Shown here in pieces: positions 50,033 through 59,198 of a DNA stretch of 64,000 nucleotides; within the stretch, counting starts at the first letter, position 1, and every line of letters starts with the position of its first letter. Under the pieces are notes generated by a model. It searched no databases. It had not been told where the DNA came from and saw nothing but the letters and a program-made list of their open reading frames with translations. The DNA is from Rheinheimera hassiensis (GTDB lineage: Bacteria; Pseudomonadota; Gammaproteobacteria; Enterobacterales; Alteromonadaceae): the NCBI RefSeq assembly GCF_022436675.1, contig NZ_JAKUJZ010000004.1, forward strand, positions 186,001-250,000, written 5' to 3'. A program made the position numbers and the translations under genes.

Positions 50033-50164
50033 GCTTCTGGCTAGCTATATATCCAAGTGGCCGGTTATTTCTGTTTTATATAACTAATAGTTATCAAATC
50101 CTTCGGCGCCTGTCATTACAGGCATAGAATGCGCACATTGAACAACCCGCAATGTGAGCGCAAT

Positions 50165-51187
50165 ATGACGTTACAACTTCCGGTGCTGGATTTAGCTTTG
50201 TGGCGGGCTGGCGGTGAGCTACGCCGCCAGTTTCTGACGCAGCTGGGCGAGGCTGCACGCGATGTCGGCTTTTTTTATCTGACCGGCCACGGTATCGTAC
50301 AAACGCAGCAGCAGGCAATTTTACAACTGGCTGCAGAATTTTTTGCTTTGCCACAAGCAGACAAAGATGCCGTGCAGATGGTAAATTCGCCGCATTTTCG
50401 TGGTTATACCCGCTTAGGTGGCGAGTTAACGCTGGGTAAGGCTGATCAGCGCGAGCAGTTTGACATTATGGCCGAGCATAGCGCGCCGTTACTGCAAAAA
50501 GATGAACCGGCCTGGTGGCGTTTATATGGCCCGAACCAGTGGCCTGCGGCGTTACCGGCTATGCAACCGGCGTTACTACAATGGCAGGATCAGTTAACCG
50601 ATCTTACCGTAACCCTGCTGCGTGCCTTTGCGCTGGTACTGCAGCAAAGCGAGGACGCCTTTGACAGCACTATTAAAGATGGCCCTTACCGCCATATGAA
50701 ATTGATCCGTTATCCGGGGCGCAATGCCCCTGAGCAGGAGCAAGGGGTAGGCGCGCATAAAGACCCGGGTTATTTAACCCTGGTATTGCAGGATGGCCAG
50801 AGCGGCCTTGAAGTGTTAACTGAAAAAGGCTGGTTAAGCGCAGTACCGCTGCCTGGCGCCTTTGTGGTGAATATAGGGGAACTGCTGGAACTGGCGTCAA
50901 ATGGTTACCTGCGTGCAACCTATCATCGCGTGGTTAGCCCACCTGCCGGTGTTGAGCGTCTGTCATGCGCCTTTTTTATGGCCGCGCAGTTGGATGCCAC
51001 AGTGCCGTTGCTGCCATTGCCGCAAGAGTTGGCATTGCAAGCCAAAGGCCCGGCCAGCGATCCGCTTAACCCGCTATTTTATCAGGTGGGGCAAAATGTA
51101 TTAAAAGGCCGTTTGCGTTCACACCCTGATGTGGCGCAAGCGCATTATTCGACTATTACCGGTTTAGATAAAAAGACCGCTGTTTAA
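50165..51187 (+). CDS. 2-oxoglutarate-Fe(II) oxygenase, isopenicillin N synthase family
   Basis: A 340-residue protein from ATG 50165. The DIOX_N domain (LPVLDLALWRAGGELRRQFL; DVGFFYLTGHGI) and the core with iron ligands HxD (GAHKDPGYLTLVLQDG) and His plus the 2OG-binding RxS (HRVVSPPAGVERLSCAFF) are intact. It would hydroxylate or otherwise oxidise a small molecule. The PLP lyase starts 12 bp after its stop, so the two probably form an operon. Confidence 0.85.
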   Translation: MTLQLPVLDLALWRAGGELRRQFLTQLGEAARDVGFFYLTGHGIVQTQQQAILQLAAEFFALPQADKDAVQMVNSPHFRGYTRLGGELTLGKADQREQFDIMAEHSAPLLQKDEPAWWRLYGPNQWPAALPAMQPALLQWQDQLTDLTVTLLRAFALVLQQSEDAFDSTIKDGPYRHMKLIRYPGRNAPEQEQGVGAHKDPGYLTLVLQDGQSGLEVLTEKGWLSAVPLPGAFVVNIGELLELASNGYLRATYHRVVSPPAGVERLSCAFFMAAQLDATVPLLPLPQELALQAKGPASDPLNPLFYQVGQNVLKGRLRSHPDVAQAHYSTITGLDKKTAV

Positions 51188-51199
51188 CGGACATTATTA

Positions 51200-52357
51200 A
51201 TGAAATTTAAAACTCAATTGCTACACAGTGGTGCCGGTGCCGACACACAAACTGGCGCTTTAACCACGCCAATTTACCAAAGCAGTACTTTTACTTATGG
51301 CACTGCGGCAGACGGCAAAGCCCGTTTTGCCGGGGAGCAAAGCGGCTTTATTTACAGCCGCATGGGTAACCCGACAGTGCAGGCGTTAGAGCAACAACTG
51401 GCAGCGCTGGAAGGTGCCGGCGAAGCTCTTGTAGTGGCCAGTGGTATGGCAGCAGTAAGCAGTATTTTTTATGCGCTGGTAAGTGCCGGTGATGAAGTCG
51501 CCTTTATTGACCCGGTATACGGTGGCACCGCAGCATTTTTAATTAATACCCTCAGCCGGGCCGGTATTAAAGTAAGCCGTTACCTCAGTGCTGACGACTT
51601 AGTGGCCAATATTAGCCCCGGCACCAAGCTGGTGTTGTTTGAGCCAATAACCAACCCTAACCTGAAAGTCAGTGATTATCGCAAAGTTAAAGCTGCTGCT
51701 GCTAAAACCGGTGCCATTACCGTGTGCGACAATACCTTTTTAACGCCGTACTTATTTAAACCGCTTGCGCATGGCATTGATTTAGTAATGCACAGTGGTA
51801 CCAAATACTTAAGTGGCCACGGCGATATTATTGCCGGCGTGGTAGCTGGCCGCTCAGAGCTGATGCAACAGGTGCGCACGATAGCGCTAAAACACATTGG
51901 CGCACCGATAGGCCCGCAGGAAGCTTATTTACTGCAGCGCGGCCTGCGCACGCTGGCATTGCGGATGGATGCGCACTTAGCCGGTGCGGCAAAAGTAGCA
52001 GAGTTTTTAGCGCAGCACCCGTTGGTGGCTAAGGTGATTTATCCCGGTTTAACCAGCGACGCCGGTTATGCGGTACTGGCTGAAACAGTGGGCGCCTTTG
52101 GCGGTATGGTTAGTATTGAGCTGACGGGTGGTTTTGCCCGCGCGGCCAGGTTTTTAGACCAATTACAGTTGTTTACCCAGGCGGTAAGCCTGGGCGATTT
52201 AGAAAGCCTGGCCTGTCATCCTGCCAGCACCACCCATGCTGCTATGGATGCTTCAAGCCGCTTAGCTGCAGGGGTTACCGATGACTTAATCCGCCTGAGT
52301 ATTGGTGTCGAAGATCCGGACGATCTGATCGCTGATTTGCAGCAGGCACTGACATAG
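51200..52357 (+). CDS. PLP-dependent trans-sulfuration-type lyase (cystathionine/methionine gamma-lyase family)
   Basis: A 385-residue enzyme of the Cys/Met metabolism PLP family. IYSRMGNPTVQALEQQLAALEG, CDNTFLTPYLFKPLAHG and the PLP Lys in MHSGTKYLSGHGDIIAG are present. It may be cystathionine gamma-lyase, gamma-synthase or methionine gamma-lyase; sequence does not settle it. It follows the oxygenase, which could supply or process its sulfur-containing substrate. Confidence 0.85.
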   Translation: MKFKTQLLHSGAGADTQTGALTTPIYQSSTFTYGTAADGKARFAGEQSGFIYSRMGNPTVQALEQQLAALEGAGEALVVASGMAAVSSIFYALVSAGDEVAFIDPVYGGTAAFLINTLSRAGIKVSRYLSADDLVANISPGTKLVLFEPITNPNLKVSDYRKVKAAAAKTGAITVCDNTFLTPYLFKPLAHGIDLVMHSGTKYLSGHGDIIAGVVAGRSELMQQVRTIALKHIGAPIGPQEAYLLQRGLRTLALRMDAHLAGAAKVAEFLAQHPLVAKVIYPGLTSDAGYAVLAETVGAFGGMVSIELTGGFARAARFLDQLQLFTQAVSLGDLESLACHPASTTHAAMDASSRLAAGVTDDLIRLSIGVEDPDDLIADLQQALT

Positions 52358-52612: not shown

Positions 52613-54010
52613 TTACTGATGCCGGGCCATAAAGTCGCGGATGGCATCAACGAAGGCTTTTGATGCCGGCTCGCGGCCCAATAGCAAATGGCCGTTGCTT
52701 TCAAGGCCAACAAACTCGGCATTCGGAATAGCTGCGGCGATATCGCGGCCTACGCTGATGGGGATGCGCTGGTCGCCCATGGCATGAATTACTAAAGTAG
52801 GCACTTTCACTTGCGCCAGACGGTGGCGCACGTCGATGTCGGCAAACACCGATAAAAACCGTACTGCGTTTTCGGCTGAGGTGGTTAAGCGCTGAAAGTC
52901 ATTAAACCAGTTGAATTCAGCTTCGTTGGCATCGGGCATAAAGGTTGAAGAAAATATCTGCCGATATGCCGGGTTATCTGTACCCCAGCCGACAGCTGTT
53001 AGTGTCATCACCGCTTCGCGCTCTTTGGTTAAAGCCTCTGTAGCACCAATACGCCAGCCGGCGGCGTAGCCACCAAACAGAATAAGATGTGACACTTTTT
53101 CCGGATAACGAATAGCATACTCGATAGATACCGCCGCGCCTTGTGATATACCCAGCAGAGCAAATTTATCCAGCTTGTTAGCGCGTACCACTGTTTCCAG
53201 ATCGGTTACAAAGGCGTCAAATGAAATATCCGCTACGTCCCAGTCCGATAAACCATTGCCGCGCTCATCGTAGCGGACAAAATGATGATCTGCCGCCAAA
53301 TCCCGAAACAGTGGGCTCCAGATTGGCGCCCCCCAATCATGCTCCAAATGGCTGAGCCAATTAGCGGCTTTGACAATGGTAGGGCCTTTGCCTACCGAGG
53401 CATAAGCAATACGGACACCATCATGCGCGGTACAAAACTGTACTTTTTGTCGCGCGAGTAACTCCCGGCTGGCGGGTGGCTCTATGGTATGCAAGTTATC
53501 CGGGCTGCTCAGCGTGGTATGCGAGGCTAAACGGGCTTGCAACTTGCCGGTGAGTTGCTGTAGCTCATTACGCTCTGCCGTTAACCAATCTTGAAACAGG
53601 CTCTGATCGGGTAAATCCAGCCCCTGTAAAAAAGGCTGCTGGCTTTGTTGCAGCAGGCTTTCCAGTTCCGCAATGGATAAATCGTTACGCTGGCTGTCGG
53701 CTTTTAGCTGGTGCAGGTCAATACTGATGTCGCTACTGACCAGCGATACCCGTTCGCGATCTGCTTGCAGCCTTTCTGTGTCAGCGTCATTCACCAGCGG
53801 GCGGATCTTACTTAGTGACCAGCGTAATGCGCCTTTAGGGTCATTCGGGATTTCCCAGAACACTTCACATAACCTGTCGCGGCGGTGTGGCCGGGCAGTA
53901 AATGCCAGATACGCCAACAGGGCGCGGCTACGTTTCGAAGCTGGCAGCCGAACAAGCAGGTTATTGTGGAAAACCTGCAGCTCACCCAGCATTCTTATCG
54001 AAATTTGCAC
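52613..54010 (-). CDS. SARP-like winged-helix/BTAD regulator fused to an alpha/beta-hydrolase
   Basis: A 465-residue fusion. Residues about 1-90 are an OmpR/SARP-type winged helix (ISIRMLGELQVFHNNLLVRL; SRALLAYLAFTARPHRRDRL; ALRWSLSKIRPLV). Residues about 95-165 are a short BTAD-like helical region. Residues about 190-465 are a complete alpha/beta-hydrolase with nucleophile Ser289 (LLGISQGAAVS), Asp413 (HAMGDQRIP) and His441 (ESNGHLLL). It would bind DNA and either hydrolyse or sense a small ester or lactone; hydrolase folds serve as hormone receptors in plants. Divergent from the lipoprotein operon across a 392-bp gap with operator-like repeats. Confidence 0.85.
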   Translation of the reverse strand: MQISIRMLGELQVFHNNLLVRLPASKRSRALLAYLAFTARPHRRDRLCEVFWEIPNDPKGALRWSLSKIRPLVNDADTERLQADRERVSLVSSDISIDLHQLKADSQRNDLSIAELESLLQQSQQPFLQGLDLPDQSLFQDWLTAERNELQQLTGKLQARLASHTTLSSPDNLHTIEPPASRELLARQKVQFCTAHDGVRIAYASVGKGPTIVKAANWLSHLEHDWGAPIWSPLFRDLAADHHFVRYDERGNGLSDWDVADISFDAFVTDLETVVRANKLDKFALLGISQGAAVSIEYAIRYPEKVSHLILFGGYAAGWRIGATEALTKEREAVMTLTAVGWGTDNPAYRQIFSSTFMPDANEAEFNWFNDFQRLTTSAENAVRFLSVFADIDVRHRLAQVKVPTLVIHAMGDQRIPISVGRDIAAAIPNAEFVGLESNGHLLLGREPASKAFVDAIRDFMARHQ

Positions 54011-54175: not shown

Positions 54176-54212
54176 TAAAATACTTATGCATTTATACGGC
54201 ATAAGTATTTTA
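54176..54212. promoter_or_regulatory. 14-bp perfect palindrome (candidate operator)
   Basis: TAAAATACTTATGC (54176-54189) pairs exactly with GCATAAGTATTTTA (54199-54212) around a 9-base loop, between the divergent SARP-hydrolase and lipoprotein genes. It fits a dimer-binding site; a terminator is unlikely as no transcript should end there. Confidence 0.5.
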
Positions 54213-54318
54213 TTTCAGTTTTAATGTGCAAATTGTGCAACGGGAATGCTCTAAAATCAACAACTCAAGTTGAATCTGCATTAACAACTCAGAAATAACA
54301 CGCCTTAATACTGGAAAA

Positions 54319-54354
54319 ACCACGCTTAATACCACGCTGGCTACCACGGTAGCT
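54319..54354 (+). promoter_or_regulatory. Three tandem 12-bp direct repeats upstream of the lipoprotein operon
   Basis: ACCACGCTTAAT, ACCACGCTGGCT and ACCACGGTAGCT follow one another at exact 12-bp spacing, sharing ACCACG(C/G)T. They end 48 bp before the ATG at 54403. Tandem repeats near one helical turn apart are typical targets of SARP-type activators. A further pair, AACAACTCA (54259-54267 and 54283-54291), lies upstream. Binding is inferred. Confidence 0.6.
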
Positions 54355-54402
54355 GGCTAGACTACCGGTTGGTTTGATTTTTTTGTTAGGGAAGATTTTG
54401 TT

Positions 54403-56352
54403 ATGTTAACCATAAGAACACCTCTATTGGCGTTAGTGCTACTGACAACCTTAACCGCTTGTGGTGGCGGTGGCAGCAGTGCCCCTGTAACCGAAGAGCC
54501 GGTTGCCGTTGATTTTGATATCGAAATGTCTGATTTTTCAATGGATTTTGATACAAGCCAGGCCTTTGCGCTTAATCACCGGATCCCGGTTTCATTTACC
54601 ATTCGCGGCACTGACGCCAGCATAACGGAAGTGACCAATATTCCGGTTAGTTTTAGTTTTGTCGAGAAAAACCCGGCCAACCCGGCGGCGCCGATCGTAT
54701 GTAGCTCTAATGCTATTGATGTAGAGTTACCGGCTGGTGGTGCGCCGGTAGTGGTGGCAAACGAGTTTATCTGGCCTGTCAGCGAATGCCAAATCCTGGC
54801 CGAAGCCGGACGCGAAGTAGAACTGCAAGTTGGTTTTTTCCGCGATGAAGAAGAGCTTAAAGGTAACGTAACGGCTAACTTACCTACCCTGACATTGCGC
54901 GAAGGCGGCACAGATGTAGAGTACGAATTAACTACTGAATCGTCAGTAGCCTTGCTGACTATCACCGAAGAAGGGGAATCGCCAACGCCGGTGTTGTCGG
55001 TACAGTCCGGTTTTGTGTTCAATGGTGCCGACCCTTATTTTTCTAAAATTGATGCCGCTGAAATTCCGGCAGATTTAGAGGTGGTTGACGCTGAAACAGG
55101 CCTTAGCATCCAACAAGAGCTAACCTACGGCATGACCGAAGAGCAATTAAATCAATTAGGCAAATTGCCGGCGTCGGTTACGCTGACTTATGTATTAATT
55201 CCTGAAAGTGCGCCGGGTATCATCTTGCCGTTAATGATTGGCCAGGAAGATGGCAGCACGGTAGCATCATACAGTTTTAATGAAATTCAACCGGGCATTG
55301 CTGATGAGGTTACCCACGACCTGTATCTGGAAAGCGCGGATCTTGCTGCAGTACAAGACGGAGACCTGGCAAACGAAACGCACTATATTTTGCGTGGCTG
55401 TGTGGTAACCAGTTTCTCTCAGAATGGTAACGACGGCGATCTTGCTAACGACTGTAAAGATGTGGACATTAACTTAGAGCGTGAAAGTGCGACCGCCGTT
55501 ACTGCGGCAAGTAATACGGCCTTTAAAAAGAACCAAAAGCGCAACGCCGGTAACTCCCGCATTGCCATTGAATCTGAAATGGATGTCGACAACACCCTAA
55601 GCCGCAACGGTATTTTAAGCCGTGCCACCGGCGAAGTTGCACTACGCGGCAATATTGGCAAAAGCTTTGATTTTACAATTGCTGAAGCCATCGCTGAAGC
55701 CATAGTAACGAAAGATAAGTCGTCCTATTTTCATCAAATTAAAGCCTTCAACAAAGTGGTGGCCGGTGATACCAAAGAAGGCAAAGAACACCTGAAACTG
55801 AAGAATGAATTCAAGCAGGACAAAGCGCAGGAAGTGGCCGGTTTAGGTTTTGGTTTTGGCCCTGTGCGGCTGGGTTTTAAAATCAGCGCAGGCGGCCGGG
55901 TGGGTATTGATGTTGACGATGACATGGACCTGCTGACCGATCTGCCAGAGTGCCAACTATTGCTGGTATCTACAGAAGCGGTTAACACTTGCGGTTACCT
56001 AACCCGTACCGTGGCGCCAAACTTCAGCTTTACCGGCCGTATCTTTGGTGGCCTGGATTTACGCATTGTTAAAGCCGGAGTGGATGCCAATCTGCGCTTT
56101 TTGGAAAATAAATTTCCATTAACCGGGGTATTAAGTTTTGGCCTGACCGACGACAACCGTATTTTAGTGCGCGGTGATGTTACGCTAGACCATACTCTGC
56201 AAACGATCAGCGGCAAAGTTAAGCTGGTTGGGACCATTAAAGTACTTCGTTTTCGTCGCAGCAAATCCGTTACGCTGGTCAGTTTCTCGTCTAAACCTGT
56301 TACGCAAAACCTGTTAACACGCAGTACCGGAGGCACGCTGGAATTACTGTAG
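54403..56352 (+). CDS. Large lipoprotein of unknown function
   Basis: A 649-residue protein with lipobox LTAC (Cys20) then GGGGSS, so it is lipid-anchored, probably in the outer membrane. The first half is acidic and beta-rich (LTLREGGTDVEYELTTESSV). Residues about 500-640 include a beta-rich segment with alternating glycine (GLGFGFGPVRLGFKISAGGR; SFTGRIFGGLDLRIVKAGVD). No family recognised. First gene of a run with the HEAT and metzincin genes (36 bp to the next). Confidence 0.75.
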   Translation: MLTIRTPLLALVLLTTLTACGGGGSSAPVTEEPVAVDFDIEMSDFSMDFDTSQAFALNHRIPVSFTIRGTDASITEVTNIPVSFSFVEKNPANPAAPIVCSSNAIDVELPAGGAPVVVANEFIWPVSECQILAEAGREVELQVGFFRDEEELKGNVTANLPTLTLREGGTDVEYELTTESSVALLTITEEGESPTPVLSVQSGFVFNGADPYFSKIDAAEIPADLEVVDAETGLSIQQELTYGMTEEQLNQLGKLPASVTLTYVLIPESAPGIILPLMIGQEDGSTVASYSFNEIQPGIADEVTHDLYLESADLAAVQDGDLANETHYILRGCVVTSFSQNGNDGDLANDCKDVDINLERESATAVTAASNTAFKKNQKRNAGNSRIAIESEMDVDNTLSRNGILSRATGEVALRGNIGKSFDFTIAEAIAEAIVTKDKSSYFHQIKAFNKVVAGDTKEGKEHLKLKNEFKQDKAQEVAGLGFGFGPVRLGFKISAGGRVGIDVDDDMDLLTDLPECQLLLVSTEAVNTCGYLTRTVAPNFSFTGRIFGGLDLRIVKAGVDANLRFLENKFPLTGVLSFGLTDDNRILVRGDVTLDHTLQTISGKVKLVGTIKVLRFRRSKSVTLVSFSSKPVTQNLLTRSTGGTLELL

Positions 56353-56388: not shown

Positions 56389-58173
56389 ATGACTGGTTTG
56401 AAGATTAGAAAAATATTGGTGTTAGCCACTGCGGCTGCCGCTGTGGTGGGGATTATAGCTTTCAACTCATGGGAGAACTCTGGCCCGGCGCAGGCTGACT
56501 TGGCCGCAAGCGCGCCGCAGGCGGCAAGTTGCCACCTGAGCGTGGGCCAAACTGCGGCGTTCCGCTTTAGCTCAACGGTTACGGCAGAGGGGCAAAGCGA
56601 TACGTTTGAGGGTGTGATGAGCTGGCAGGTTGAAGCGCTTAACGCCGGTGTTGCGCGGGTGCGGGCAAGTTTCAGCAAGGTGAGCCTCAGCCAGGATATG
56701 ACGTTAGCGGCAGAGCGTGCGGCATCACCGCAAGGCTTGCCGTTCTTTCTGCAAGTGGACAGCAACTGCGCCATTAGCGGTACAGCCTTTGCACCACAAT
56801 GGCAGCCGAAAAGCCGCTTGTTGGTGGCCACCCAACTGGATAATTTCACCTTTTTGCTGCCGCAAGCAGGTGCAACGCAATGGCAGAGTGCTGCGTTAGA
56901 CGGGCTGGGCGATTACACCGCGCACTTTAGTTTGCTTAGCCAGGCACCGCTGCAAATTCAGCGGCAAAAAACAGATCATCTGATACGCGGTGCCGCCGAC
57001 AGTTTTGGTATTAAAATTTCGCTGCAGAAATCGCAAGCCACTGCCATGTTTAACCCGGCACAACCACTATGGTGGCAAGCTATCAGCGGTGAAGAAATTG
57101 TTAGCTTGCAGGTTGCTGGTCAGCCGGAAGTGATTATGCAACAACGCTTTTCATTGCAACGCGATGATCAACTGTTTGCTGCCATTCCACAAACCGATTG
57201 GGCGTTGGCGGAAAAATCCGTCCCTTATGATTTAGCACCGGAATTTGACGAGTTTATAACGCAGCAGCAAAGTTATACTGAAGCTTATACTGACTTTGTC
57301 AGTGCTATCACAGACTCGCCGCCACGTTATTTTGATGCGGCCCTTGAAATGGCGGCCTGGTTAAAAAAACACCCGGAAGATGTCGACTTGTTAGTGGCAG
57401 AGCTGCGCGGGCAGATGGCTGATGATGCCCGGCCGACAGCGTTTTTAGCTCTGCAGTTATCTGGCCTGAATAACGCCCGCGAAGCGCTGTCAGACATGGT
57501 GTTTGACGCTACGATGAGCCAGGGAGACCAATCCAGAGCCGCTTCCGCCCTGGCTGATCTTGGCACGCCCCGGCAGGATGTCGCCGAGCTGCTGCTTGCG
57601 CGCGCGGCGGTCAAAGATATTGCCGGTAATGCCAGCCTGTTGGGCGCAGGCAGCATGGTTGACCGCTCAGATGACCCTGCTTTACGCCAGTACATTATGC
57701 AATCGCTGCAACAGCAGCTTGTCAGCACCGCTGACCAAAGTGAACGGCTAATCTTAATTGACAGCATGGGTAATACCGGTGATGCCGCCTTTGTCGATGT
57801 ATTAAGCCAGGAGCTTAGCGCGCAGTCGACTGCAACCCGTCGCCGGGCTGCTGATGCCATATCACGCTTACCGGCGGAGCAGGCCCGACCTGCGTTGTTG
57901 GATGCGCTGGTGCTGGAAAGCGATCCGCAGGTGAGCACGGCATTAATCGATGCATTAAAACATGCCGGTGCTACCTCGCCGGAGCTGGTGGATGTGCTGG
58001 AAAAACGCATCAACTCGTCAGATGCCAATCAACGTGCCGCTACCATCGAATTACTGGGCAGCCAACAAACTGAAAGGGCACAGCAACTGCTAATTGCGCA
58101 ATATAAACGCGAAACCGATGCCCAGCTTAAAATGCAGATTGGCCGCTATGTGCCAGCCAGGGCGCTAAGATGA
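56389..58173 (+). CDS. Secreted or anchored HEAT-repeat protein
   Basis: A 594-residue protein with an N-terminal hydrophobic segment (about 8-26) acting as signal or anchor. A beta-rich region (about 45-280) precedes HEAT-like helical pairs (about 300-590; ARPTAFLALQLSGLNNAREA; DQSRAASALADLGTPRQDV). Beta domain plus HEAT superhelix loosely recalls large lipid-transfer proteins, but this is only impression. Its stop overlaps the metzincin start (ATGA). Confidence 0.7.
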   Translation: MTGLKIRKILVLATAAAAVVGIIAFNSWENSGPAQADLAASAPQAASCHLSVGQTAAFRFSSTVTAEGQSDTFEGVMSWQVEALNAGVARVRASFSKVSLSQDMTLAAERAASPQGLPFFLQVDSNCAISGTAFAPQWQPKSRLLVATQLDNFTFLLPQAGATQWQSAALDGLGDYTAHFSLLSQAPLQIQRQKTDHLIRGAADSFGIKISLQKSQATAMFNPAQPLWWQAISGEEIVSLQVAGQPEVIMQQRFSLQRDDQLFAAIPQTDWALAEKSVPYDLAPEFDEFITQQQSYTEAYTDFVSAITDSPPRYFDAALEMAAWLKKHPEDVDLLVAELRGQMADDARPTAFLALQLSGLNNAREALSDMVFDATMSQGDQSRAASALADLGTPRQDVAELLLARAAVKDIAGNASLLGAGSMVDRSDDPALRQYIMQSLQQQLVSTADQSERLILIDSMGNTGDAAFVDVLSQELSAQSTATRRRAADAISRLPAEQARPALLDALVLESDPQVSTALIDALKHAGATSPELVDVLEKRINSSDANQRAATIELLGSQQTERAQQLLIAQYKRETDAQLKMQIGRYVPARALR

Positions 58174-59198
58174 AACCGTCATCAGCGTTCTTGTGCGCAG
58201 CTATCGCAGCCGTTGTTGCCGGCTGCAATAGCGAACACGCCAGTGAGCCAGTGCTGTGGACACCGCTGGCGTCGGTCTCGGTAGATAGCGGGTCGGGTAA
58301 CACGTCTGCCGTAGCAGTACCGTTGGATAACTTGCGCCGCGCTCTTCGGGTCAGCGCTCAGCCGCAAGGCTGCTTGCGGGTATCTTCTGCTACTAGTGTT
58401 ACCGGTGAGGAGCTGATTGCCAACCCGGCAGCGGCTGTTGGTAACAGCTGGCGCACCACTAAATTGCATCAAGCTGGTTTATTGGTGTTAGAAGGCGTAG
58501 CCGCAGAGCTAACCCATATTAGCTTTGCAGCTGTGCCGTGCGATACTGCTGCTACCGGTATGCTGCCAACCAGCGTTAGGGTTGAATCACGCTTATCCGA
58601 ACTGCCCACTAATCCGGGGCTGAAACTACGGCTTGTGTTGAGCCAAGCGATAAGCGCTGAGTTAGATGCGGAATTATTGGCACAGTTGATCGGTTTTGAA
58701 TTGCAGCTGGACATCGCCATCACAGGCGTAGAGGTTATTGCTGATACCGATCTGATTATGCAAAGTCAGGCTGATTTCTCAACGTTAGCCGCTATATTGG
58801 CATCACTACCGGCAAAAGCGGAAGACAGTCTTGATCTGGTTATAGGGCCCTGTCTGCTACAGCAAACGCCGTTTGGCCGACAACAGTTAGCTGGCTTTAC
58901 ACCGCGAATTCCCGGTGGCGCAGGACCCGCCGACGGCGTTTTTGTGGCCCGCACTAATTGTGGCTTTGCCGGGTCATTACCCGACACTGTTAACGAAATA
59001 GCGCGCTTAGCGGCACATGAAATCGGCCATTATCTCGGGTTGGCGCACCCGGAAGAACTTGATGGCAGTAAAGATGACTTAGCCAGCACAACTACTCAAA
59101 ATCTAATGCATCGCGTTCCGTTAGCCGCCACTGCTACCGGGCTTACCTCCGAGCAGCGCTCGCGGATACTGGCACACCCTTTCGTTTCAGAGCTGTAG
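58170..59198 (+). CDS. Metzincin-like zinc metalloprotease lipoprotein
   Basis: A 342-residue protein with lipobox VAGC (Cys19). Zinc motif HEIGHYLGLAH gives His283, Glu284, His287 and His293, and a Met-turn NLMHR with Met313 follows after 20 residues, the metzincin hallmark. The N-terminal 250 residues are unlike known proteases. It overlaps the HEAT gene by 4 bp and ends the operon, converging with the DUF1445 gene. Possible substrates are the neighbouring surface proteins or external proteins. Confidence 0.8.
   Translation: MKPSSAFLCAAIAAVVAGCNSEHASEPVLWTPLASVSVDSGSGNTSAVAVPLDNLRRALRVSAQPQGCLRVSSATSVTGEELIANPAAAVGNSWRTTKLHQAGLLVLEGVAAELTHISFAAVPCDTAATGMLPTSVRVESRLSELPTNPGLKLRLVLSQAISAELDAELLAQLIGFELQLDIAITGVEVIADTDLIMQSQADFSTLAAILASLPAKAEDSLDLVIGPCLLQQTPFGRQQLAGFTPRIPGGAGPADGVFVARTNCGFAGSLPDTVNEIARLAAHEIGHYLGLAHPEELDGSKDDLASTTTQNLMHRVPLAATATGLTSEQRSRILAHPFVSEL

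Follow-up and report, generated by a model that had tools for sequence, protein, structure and literature searches.

A SARP-type regulator fused to an alpha/beta-hydrolase and its predicted operator before a divergent lipoprotein operon in Rheinheimera hassiensis

The 64,000-nucleotide stretch of Rheinheimera hassiensis DNA analysed here (the window) carries, on its minus strand at 52613..54010, a gene with a GTG start that encodes a putative SARP-type activator fused to an alpha/beta-hydrolase, 465 residues in all. An initial annotation, made from the sequence alone, had described this reading frame as a single protein joining a winged-helix domain to a hydrolase, and the same fusion is intact in 12/12 related loci (L005-L016), which rules out an assembly or frame artefact as its source. 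The gene faces three plus-strand genes that we propose as its targets. The first (54403..56352) encodes a 649-residue lipoprotein with no Pfam family and a lipobox, LTAC, assigned by eye. The second (56389..58173) encodes a 594-residue HEAT-repeat protein with an export signal, also assigned by eye, and the third (58170..59198) a 342-residue lipoprotein in which the zinc motif HEIGHYLGLAH was recognized by eye and the Pfam metzincin matches fall below the cut-off.

A full-chain structure prediction had been suggested as a check on the fusion. We obtained an AlphaFold2 model from a 15-row alignment of the window protein and relatives from L005-L016; its mean pLDDT is 84 and its pTM is 0.60, a value that makes the mutual placement of the two protein halves unreliable. 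The predicted secondary structure fits a winged helix followed by a helical stub, a disordered linker and a lidded hydrolase. By DSSP of the model and the profile matches to EmbR and AfsR given below, the winged helix (residues ~1-97) and a shortened BTAD (to residue ~164) are encoded at 53519..54010 on the minus strand, with the recognition helix at residues 58-73. The linker (residues 167-187; 53450..53512, minus strand) has pLDDT under 50, and relatives carry three further TPR-like helices there. The hydrolase domain (residues 190-465; 52616..53443, minus strand) is defined by Pfam, model and alignment; it contains S289, D413 and H441, and the model places four lid helices within residues 325-391. 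Pfam Abhydrolase_1 matches residues 230-444 (E 7.8e-22), and no Pfam domain is found in the N-terminal half of the window protein, even at E<=1. Since the best 50 of 1924 and best 50 of 1862 Foldseek matches were all hydrolases, these matches are uninformative on the N-terminal half.

With a profile built from 17 relatives, EmbR (2fez) is found at E 0.0016-0.0019, and the match to AfsR (8hvr) is weak (E 0.14). In the profile-AfsR alignment, with residues counted by hand at a chain offset of 20, the AfsR contacts W74, P79, R87, S91 and R94 reported in the compared passages of PMC10936776 correspond to W52, P55, R63, S67 and R70 of the window protein. R92 and T88, described in those passages as the base-reading residues, are replaced by K68 and W64, and the K95 position is P71, which is variable among the fusions. 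Given that contact residues are kept but base readers are swapped, the N-terminal domain looks functional, with its own sequence preference. The EmbR profile, the AfsR residues and the secondary structure of the model thus agree on an OmpR-type winged helix with SARP DNA-contact residues, and the loss of DNA-binding residues that the initial annotation had named as counter-evidence is not seen in the window protein.

The SARP half of the original SARP/BTAD label is borne out by these matches and contacts, and its BTAD half only in part. Some loci carry a tandem paralogue upstream of the main regulator copy; in the main copies of Rheinheimera, ~64 residues of the BTAD are absent. They are equivalent to residues 169-219 of the Shewanella relative, which form three TPR-like helices in its model (169-182, 187-199 and 203-219). 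Main copies outside Rheinheimera among L005-L016 all keep this stretch. The Pfam BTAD model has no match in the window protein, matches relatives L023 and L024 weakly and below the cut-off, and matches none of seven others; a SARP (L107) that is 35% alike to L010 across the N-terminal half passes the cut-off. The shortened BTAD and the lack of a Pfam N-terminal domain could point to an ordinary enzyme whose incidental N-terminal domain no longer binds DNA. We regard this as very improbable, because W52, R63, W64, S67, K68 and R70 are invariant in 21/21 aligned fusions, the window included (beyond these 21, S67 is His in two Rhizobium copies, L075 and L076, and Ala in L044), and because of the repeat array and promoter geometry described below.

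A winged helix followed by a BTAD, which is shortened in the window protein, is common to the fusion protein and the SARPs AfsR, EmbR, ActII-ORF4 and PimR. The compared passages of a SARP review name small, medium, large and LAL types, whose C-termini are nothing, NB-ARC, NB-ARC/TPR or LAL (PMC10972967); the window protein has a hydrolase instead. The only mention of 'beta hydrolase' in that review stands in a reference title, and among the matches listed no open-access title or abstract opening describes a SARP-hydrolase fusion, a scope that leaves most subscription journals outside. Unlike the four SARPs named, the fusion protein occurs in Gammaproteobacteria and beyond, and no antibiotic genes are found among the scanned neighbours of the regulator.

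The gap at 54.01-54.40 kb, guessed in the initial annotation to be the binding region, contains a conserved predicted operator. Three direct repeats of CGTGGTA with a 12-bp period lie at 54318..54348 and read CGTGGTAGCCAGCGTGGTATTAAGCGTGGTT on the minus strand. Against a pattern of three CGTGGTA units with 12-bp steps, this array matches 20/21 positions, a value equalled by 0/500 dinucleotide shuffles. A degenerate fourth repeat, CGTGTTA (CGTGGT in L005), is placed 22 bp from the third at 54296..54302 on the minus strand. The succession of 12, 12 and then 22 bp is found in the window, L005, L006, L007 (one of two arrays) and L013, and L008 has steps of 12, 12 and 12. Gap arrays in L005, L006 (two), L007 (two), L008 and L013 score 18-20, and those of L014 and L012 score 17 and 16, all equalled by 0/500 shuffles; the L011 array is weak (14, matched by 17/500 shuffles), and the gaps adjoining the regulator in L009, L010, L015 and L016 score at chance level. 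A scan at >=16/21 over 13 sequences (the window and L005-L016), whose base-shuffled control gave 1 match in 1,000,570 positions, located arrays before an S-methyltransferase gene in L010, L011, L012 and L014; it also placed a pair of identical arrays, each scoring 20/21, before two large-protein genes in Luteolibacter (L016). L009 and L015 have none at this threshold across the whole stretch. Neither of the matches at window 8612 and L012 12582 corresponds to a target, and both were rejected as target sites. Overall, the operator is well supported as a predicted site, and with the retained AfsR contacts it agrees with the earlier proposal that the regulator acts on DNA and is linked to the operon that it faces.

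On the target-gene strand the arrays end in CACG (TACG or AACG in some), and in the window a -10-like hexamer for the divergent operon, TAGACT (54358..54363, plus strand), begins 9 nt after the operator. An NAnnnT hexamer starts 9 nt past the array in 18/19 arrays near relatives (TAnnnT in 13/19), and every other offset from 0 to 29 gives such a hexamer in at most 5/19. The 18 consist of L076 and 17/17 from the window and L005-L016; the one exception, L072, deviates at position 6. The 19 do not include L073 and L074, which score 16/21 like L076 and have no hexamer, so that keeping L076 while dropping them flatters the count, which is 18/21 with all included. These two weak arrays were rejected as targets, that of L073 lying 549 bp from a gene. 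The 9-nt rule was noticed first and tested afterwards, with the offset scan as control, and the arrays are not independent: they form nine lineage/target groups, of which eight fit the spacing.

Tandem direct repeats at a fixed short distance upstream of the -10 are also the arrangement in the SARP promoters described in the compared passages (PMC10936776, PMC5930380). There the 3' repeat is 8 bp from the -10 (PMC10936776), against 9 nt here from CACG, a figure that depends on the chosen repeat end. Published SARP repeats step by 11 or 22 bp (PMC10936776), and for PimR a doublet of 10 bp has been described (PMC5930380; PMC10972967). The 12-bp step at the fusion loci departs from the 11- or 22-bp rule and is absent from the SARP literature passages compared; we therefore call the array 'SARP-like'. 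As predicted features, the CGTGGTA array at 12-bp period and the 9-nt hexamer spacing in the facing gap are new here.

In the 4.7-Mb genome of the window strain, the exact double repeat is confined to one site, the regulator-operon gap; with 0-1 mismatch, two overlapping matches fall at the gap and one more at C60:131960. The array was rejected as a genome-wide motif, as at 2 mismatches the reversed control gave 49+54 matches in this genome against 21+19 for the real motif. In a set of 60 related genomes, that of the window strain among them, four (G000, G017, G024, G027) carry the regulator at E<=1e-20. All four have the array (0-2 mismatches) at the regulator gap, and 2/56 others have one 2-mismatch match each. 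To judge from equal identities, G017, G024 and G027 probably represent the strains of L006, L005 and L007, so this presence/absence pattern is not independent of the gap scores.

Seven further SARP-hydrolase loci were found (L070-L076): L070, L071 and L075 have no array, and L073, L074 and L076 have weak ones (16/21), with the hexamer only in that of L076. A degenerate array with <=1 mismatch is present in 23/398 Pseudomonadota genomes and in 5/6 SARP-hydrolase genomes among the 398. The correlation over these genomes is weaker than it seemed at first: of the six, G111 and G225 have the array adjoining a different, TPR-type SARP, G182 has two arrays and no SARP in the retrieved stretch, and G390 has no array. 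We examined 14 stretches from 13 of the 23 array-bearing genomes. Seven contain no SARP match, and the arrays there look like chance. In L106-L110 the array is directly upstream of a SARP gene and in L115 it overlaps the SARP start; in L113 it lies ~0.6 kb beyond the SARP 3' end, and a 3-mismatch array stands upstream of that gene. The SARPs at the L106-L110 and L115 arrays (CGTGGNA) have TolB/TPR-type C-termini, not a hydrolase, and none of these six arrays has the 9-nt hexamer, which is present at both L113 arrays. It thus seems that the 12-bp array is a feature of a broader SARP clade that includes the hydrolase fusions; given the six arrays lacking the hexamer, the 9-nt promoter spacing is established, as a sequence pattern, only for the hydrolase fusions.

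Full-length relatives come from Rheinheimera, Shewanella, Pseudoalteromonas, Teredinibacter, Woeseiaceae, an Acidobacteriota MAG and Luteolibacter. L010, L011, L012 and L014 are MAGs with OFTM isolate names, and the phylum of L010 (Acidobacteriota) depends on binning. The lipoprotein/HEAT/metzincin operon noted at first sight stays with the regulator in three genera, Rheinheimera (window, L005, L006, L007), Shewanella (L013) and Pseudoalteromonas (L008), while the genes flanking this unit vary between genera. In the window, a 2OG-Fe(II) oxygenase and a Cys/Met-metabolism PLP enzyme (50129-52357) lie between a chromate transporter and the regulator; the pair is missing from the otherwise similar L005 stretch. 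The HEAT protein was found at E<=1e-15 in the own genome only among 299 searched, besides loci L005-L016. It was considered as lipovitellin-like (Pfam Vitellogenin_N, E 8e-4, below the cut-off), an idea that we dropped, with no lipovitellin among its solved-structure matches.

Elsewhere the partner genes are different. L011, L012 and L014 have a TPR protein and a homocysteine S-methyltransferase, and L010 has the same two in another order. The two large proteins of L016 have TSP3 matches, the second below the cut-off; L009 has an amylase/pullulanase as neighbour, and the neighbours of L015 have nothing in common with the rest. In two Rheinheimera loci an HDOD gene (L006:5308-6153, L007:5289-6134; Pfam for the L006 copy) stands between regulators and operon with its own array copy upstream, as if captured into the regulon. 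The target gene thus switches by lineage while the array stays near the regulator, the switched targets being the HDOD gene, the TPR/S-methyltransferase pair, the Luteolibacter large proteins and, in Rhizobium, a separate hydrolase.

We then consider the hydrolase module. The window protein has the Abhydrolase_1 fold, a GxSxG nucleophile elbow and a Ser-Asp-His triad; as first proposed, Ser289, Asp413 and His441 align with the nucleophile, the acid and the His of the family. The triad is kept in 38/44 aligned module members, near-copies included, and is intact in 22/23 SARP-type copies. The six exceptions are one SARP fusion (G), two LuxR fusions (C), two winged-helix fusions (A; L with the His also lost) and one cyclase fusion (E for D). 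Alpha/beta-hydrolases usually have an HG oxyanion dipeptide after strand 3. This dipeptide is found in 0/44 module members, the window protein having A216-N217-W218, and His221 is invariant in 44/44.

Searching 398 Pseudomonadota genomes at E<=1e-40, with a maximum of four candidates scored per genome and hence no census, gave 28 places matching the hydrolase, the window included. In-frame stops interrupt one of them (L035), which leaves 27 readable matches. Each of these is fused, to a SARP (7), an OmpR-type winged helix (11), a LuxR-type domain (7) or a class III cyclase (2), so that the separate, unlinked homologues that would have told against the earlier proposal do not appear at this threshold; the weaker hydrolases of the window genome, alike at 33% or less, stand outside this count. 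On the module tree the outputs cluster, with 5 changes against a mean of 18.9 for shuffled labels, and the two cyclase fusions are placed in the same tree as the SARP fusions. SARP fusion takes 3 changes on the best tree, and 1 may suffice, so that it may have arisen once.

These data bear on whether the module senses a metabolite or consumes it. The closest sequence matches of the hydrolase are esterases and enol-lactonases. Together with the triad in 22/23 SARP-type copies and the Rhizobium plasmid on which the array-linked gene is a second hydrolase, this is what would be expected of a signal-degrading regulator, in which the enzyme mainly destroys (or makes) a metabolite, the SARP half senses otherwise or is held until the substrate is gone, and target genes track substrate depletion. 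That account is unlikely, however: fusion of all 27 readable matches to DNA-binding or cyclase domains argues for sensing, the nucleophile is lost or changed in several fused copies (G in a Shewanella paralogue; A, L and C elsewhere), and the usual oxyanion dipeptide is missing in 44/44 module members.

Known signalling hydrolases offer partial parallels. The initial annotation pointed to plant hormone perception by alpha/beta-hydrolases. The plant strigolactone and karrikin receptors D14 and KAI2 share with the window hydrolase the fold, lid helices and Ser-Asp-His triad, but the parallel does not extend to sequence: D14 scores only E 1.8e-6, and ordinary bacterial esterases score higher. D14 acts via an F-box protein, whereas the window hydrolase is joined to a DNA-binding domain. 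LipJ/Rv1900c hydrolase-adenylyl cyclases also combine a related hydrolase with a signalling output (NCBIfam match E 1.1e-18), but the window protein reaches 67 bits against a cut-off of 800 for the LipJ model, and with no cyclase domain match in it, its output would be DNA binding rather than a cyclic nucleotide. RsbQ-PAS, of Bacillus sigma-B control, likewise uses an alpha/beta-hydrolase as cytoplasmic input to diverse outputs, those named in the compared passages being a phosphatase, a histidine kinase and a diguanylate cyclase (PMC3183031). According to the same passages, RsbQ triad substitutions give a null phenotype, so that the active site is required, and both product delivery and pocket occupancy have been proposed (PMC3183031). 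By analogy, these two models would apply to the fusion protein too. RsbQ is a separate protein touching its PAS domain in that account, while the window hydrolase shares a chain with its DNA-binding domain. The two hydrolases are only modestly alike in sequence (E 5.6e-10), and no PAS-domain signalling gene lies beside the regulator, whose direct neighbours are the PLP enzyme and the lipoprotein operon.

Tandem paralogues upstream of the main copy are found in Shewanella profunda (L013) and in two Rheinheimera loci (L006, L007). Like the Rheinheimera main copies, they lack the ~64-residue helical stretch. In the Shewanella paralogue (L013:6497-7906) Gly replaces the nucleophile Ser, and the Rheinheimera paralogues have GISNS in place of GISQG. 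Because these paralogues have lost Ser289 or the GxSxG glycine, the sequences suggest that turnover is not always required. Fused copies without a nucleophile would also fit a hydrolase that is a scaffold, serving only to oligomerise or shield the SARP half; such a protein would take no small-molecule input and would be controlled by its level or by a partner protein. A scaffold has no need of an active site, however, and in the main copies of L005-L016 (three phyla, one via a MAG) S289, D413, H441 and many surrounding residues are invariant, which makes this explanation improbable.

The window and L005 have a single regulator copy. At its start (blocks -20 and +10) the window gene is 86-90% identical to the L006/L007 paralogue and 40-66% to the main copy, and from nucleotides ~70 to 220 it is 83-96% identical to the main copy; upstream of the gene most blocks are nearer the paralogue, except -110 and -80 (20-33% to the paralogue). 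This mosaic fits a deletion between tandem copies, by which the window gene would have acquired the start of the first copy and the body of the second.

Our best reading, to which we assign a probability of about 60%, is that the protein is a one-component regulator that activates the divergent lipoprotein/HEAT/metzincin operon and uses its hydrolase as a receptor. It would have the build of a 'large' SARP with an alpha/beta-hydrolase in place of the usual NB-ARC/TPR sensor. Protomers would be arranged along the CGTGGTA repeats, which occupy the place expected for the -35 of the divergent promoter, and, by analogy with AfsR, might recruit RNA polymerase to the operon, with activation rather than repression as the proposed outcome. 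The pocket under the four-helix lid may bind a small molecule from the cytoplasm. Going by the fold and by the esterases and enol-lactonases that match best, this ligand would probably be an ester, a lactone or a related acyl compound. Occupancy of the pocket would free or align the SARP half, and slow hydrolysis may end the signal. We infer hydrolase control of the SARP half because AfsR is inhibited by its own C-terminal domains, according to the passages compared (PMC10936776). Paralogues that lack the nucleophile argue for occupancy sensing, and the triads kept in main copies argue for a role of turnover.

A more tentative extension is that the hydrolase is a portable receptor module, a one-chain counterpart of RsbQ-PAS and D14 serving at least four outputs. 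Turnover would then act as a timer, and the catalytically damaged tandem partner of Shewanella and Rheinheimera might compete or cooperate with the active copy on the same repeats. The SARPs known so far are mostly actinobacterial antibiotic activators with ATPase/TPR C-terminal sensors; here is a clade mostly in Proteobacteria, with a hydrolase as likely sensor, whose sequences are enough to propose an operator, a promoter geometry and a target operon. Whether a bacterial alpha/beta-hydrolase can be a true receptor, and whether hydrolysis starts or stops the signal, thereby becomes testable, with the array plus -10 as a ready reporter for ligand hunting.

The long leader of the regulator gene has further features. 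No Rfam family reaches its cut-off in the gap, where the single match is far below it. A perfect 14-bp inverted repeat, TAAAATACTTATGC/GCATAAGTATTTTA, lies in the leader at window 54176-54212; by eye, it is nearly the same in L005 and imperfect in L006, L007 and L013, and it is possibly a second regulatory site or a leader hairpin. A second direct-repeat pair, ATCAACAACTCA / ATTAACAACTCA, 24 bp apart, lies at window 54256-54291, and beside it a candidate regulator promoter, TTGATT-17-CACAAT, can be recognized by eye, also in L005-L007.
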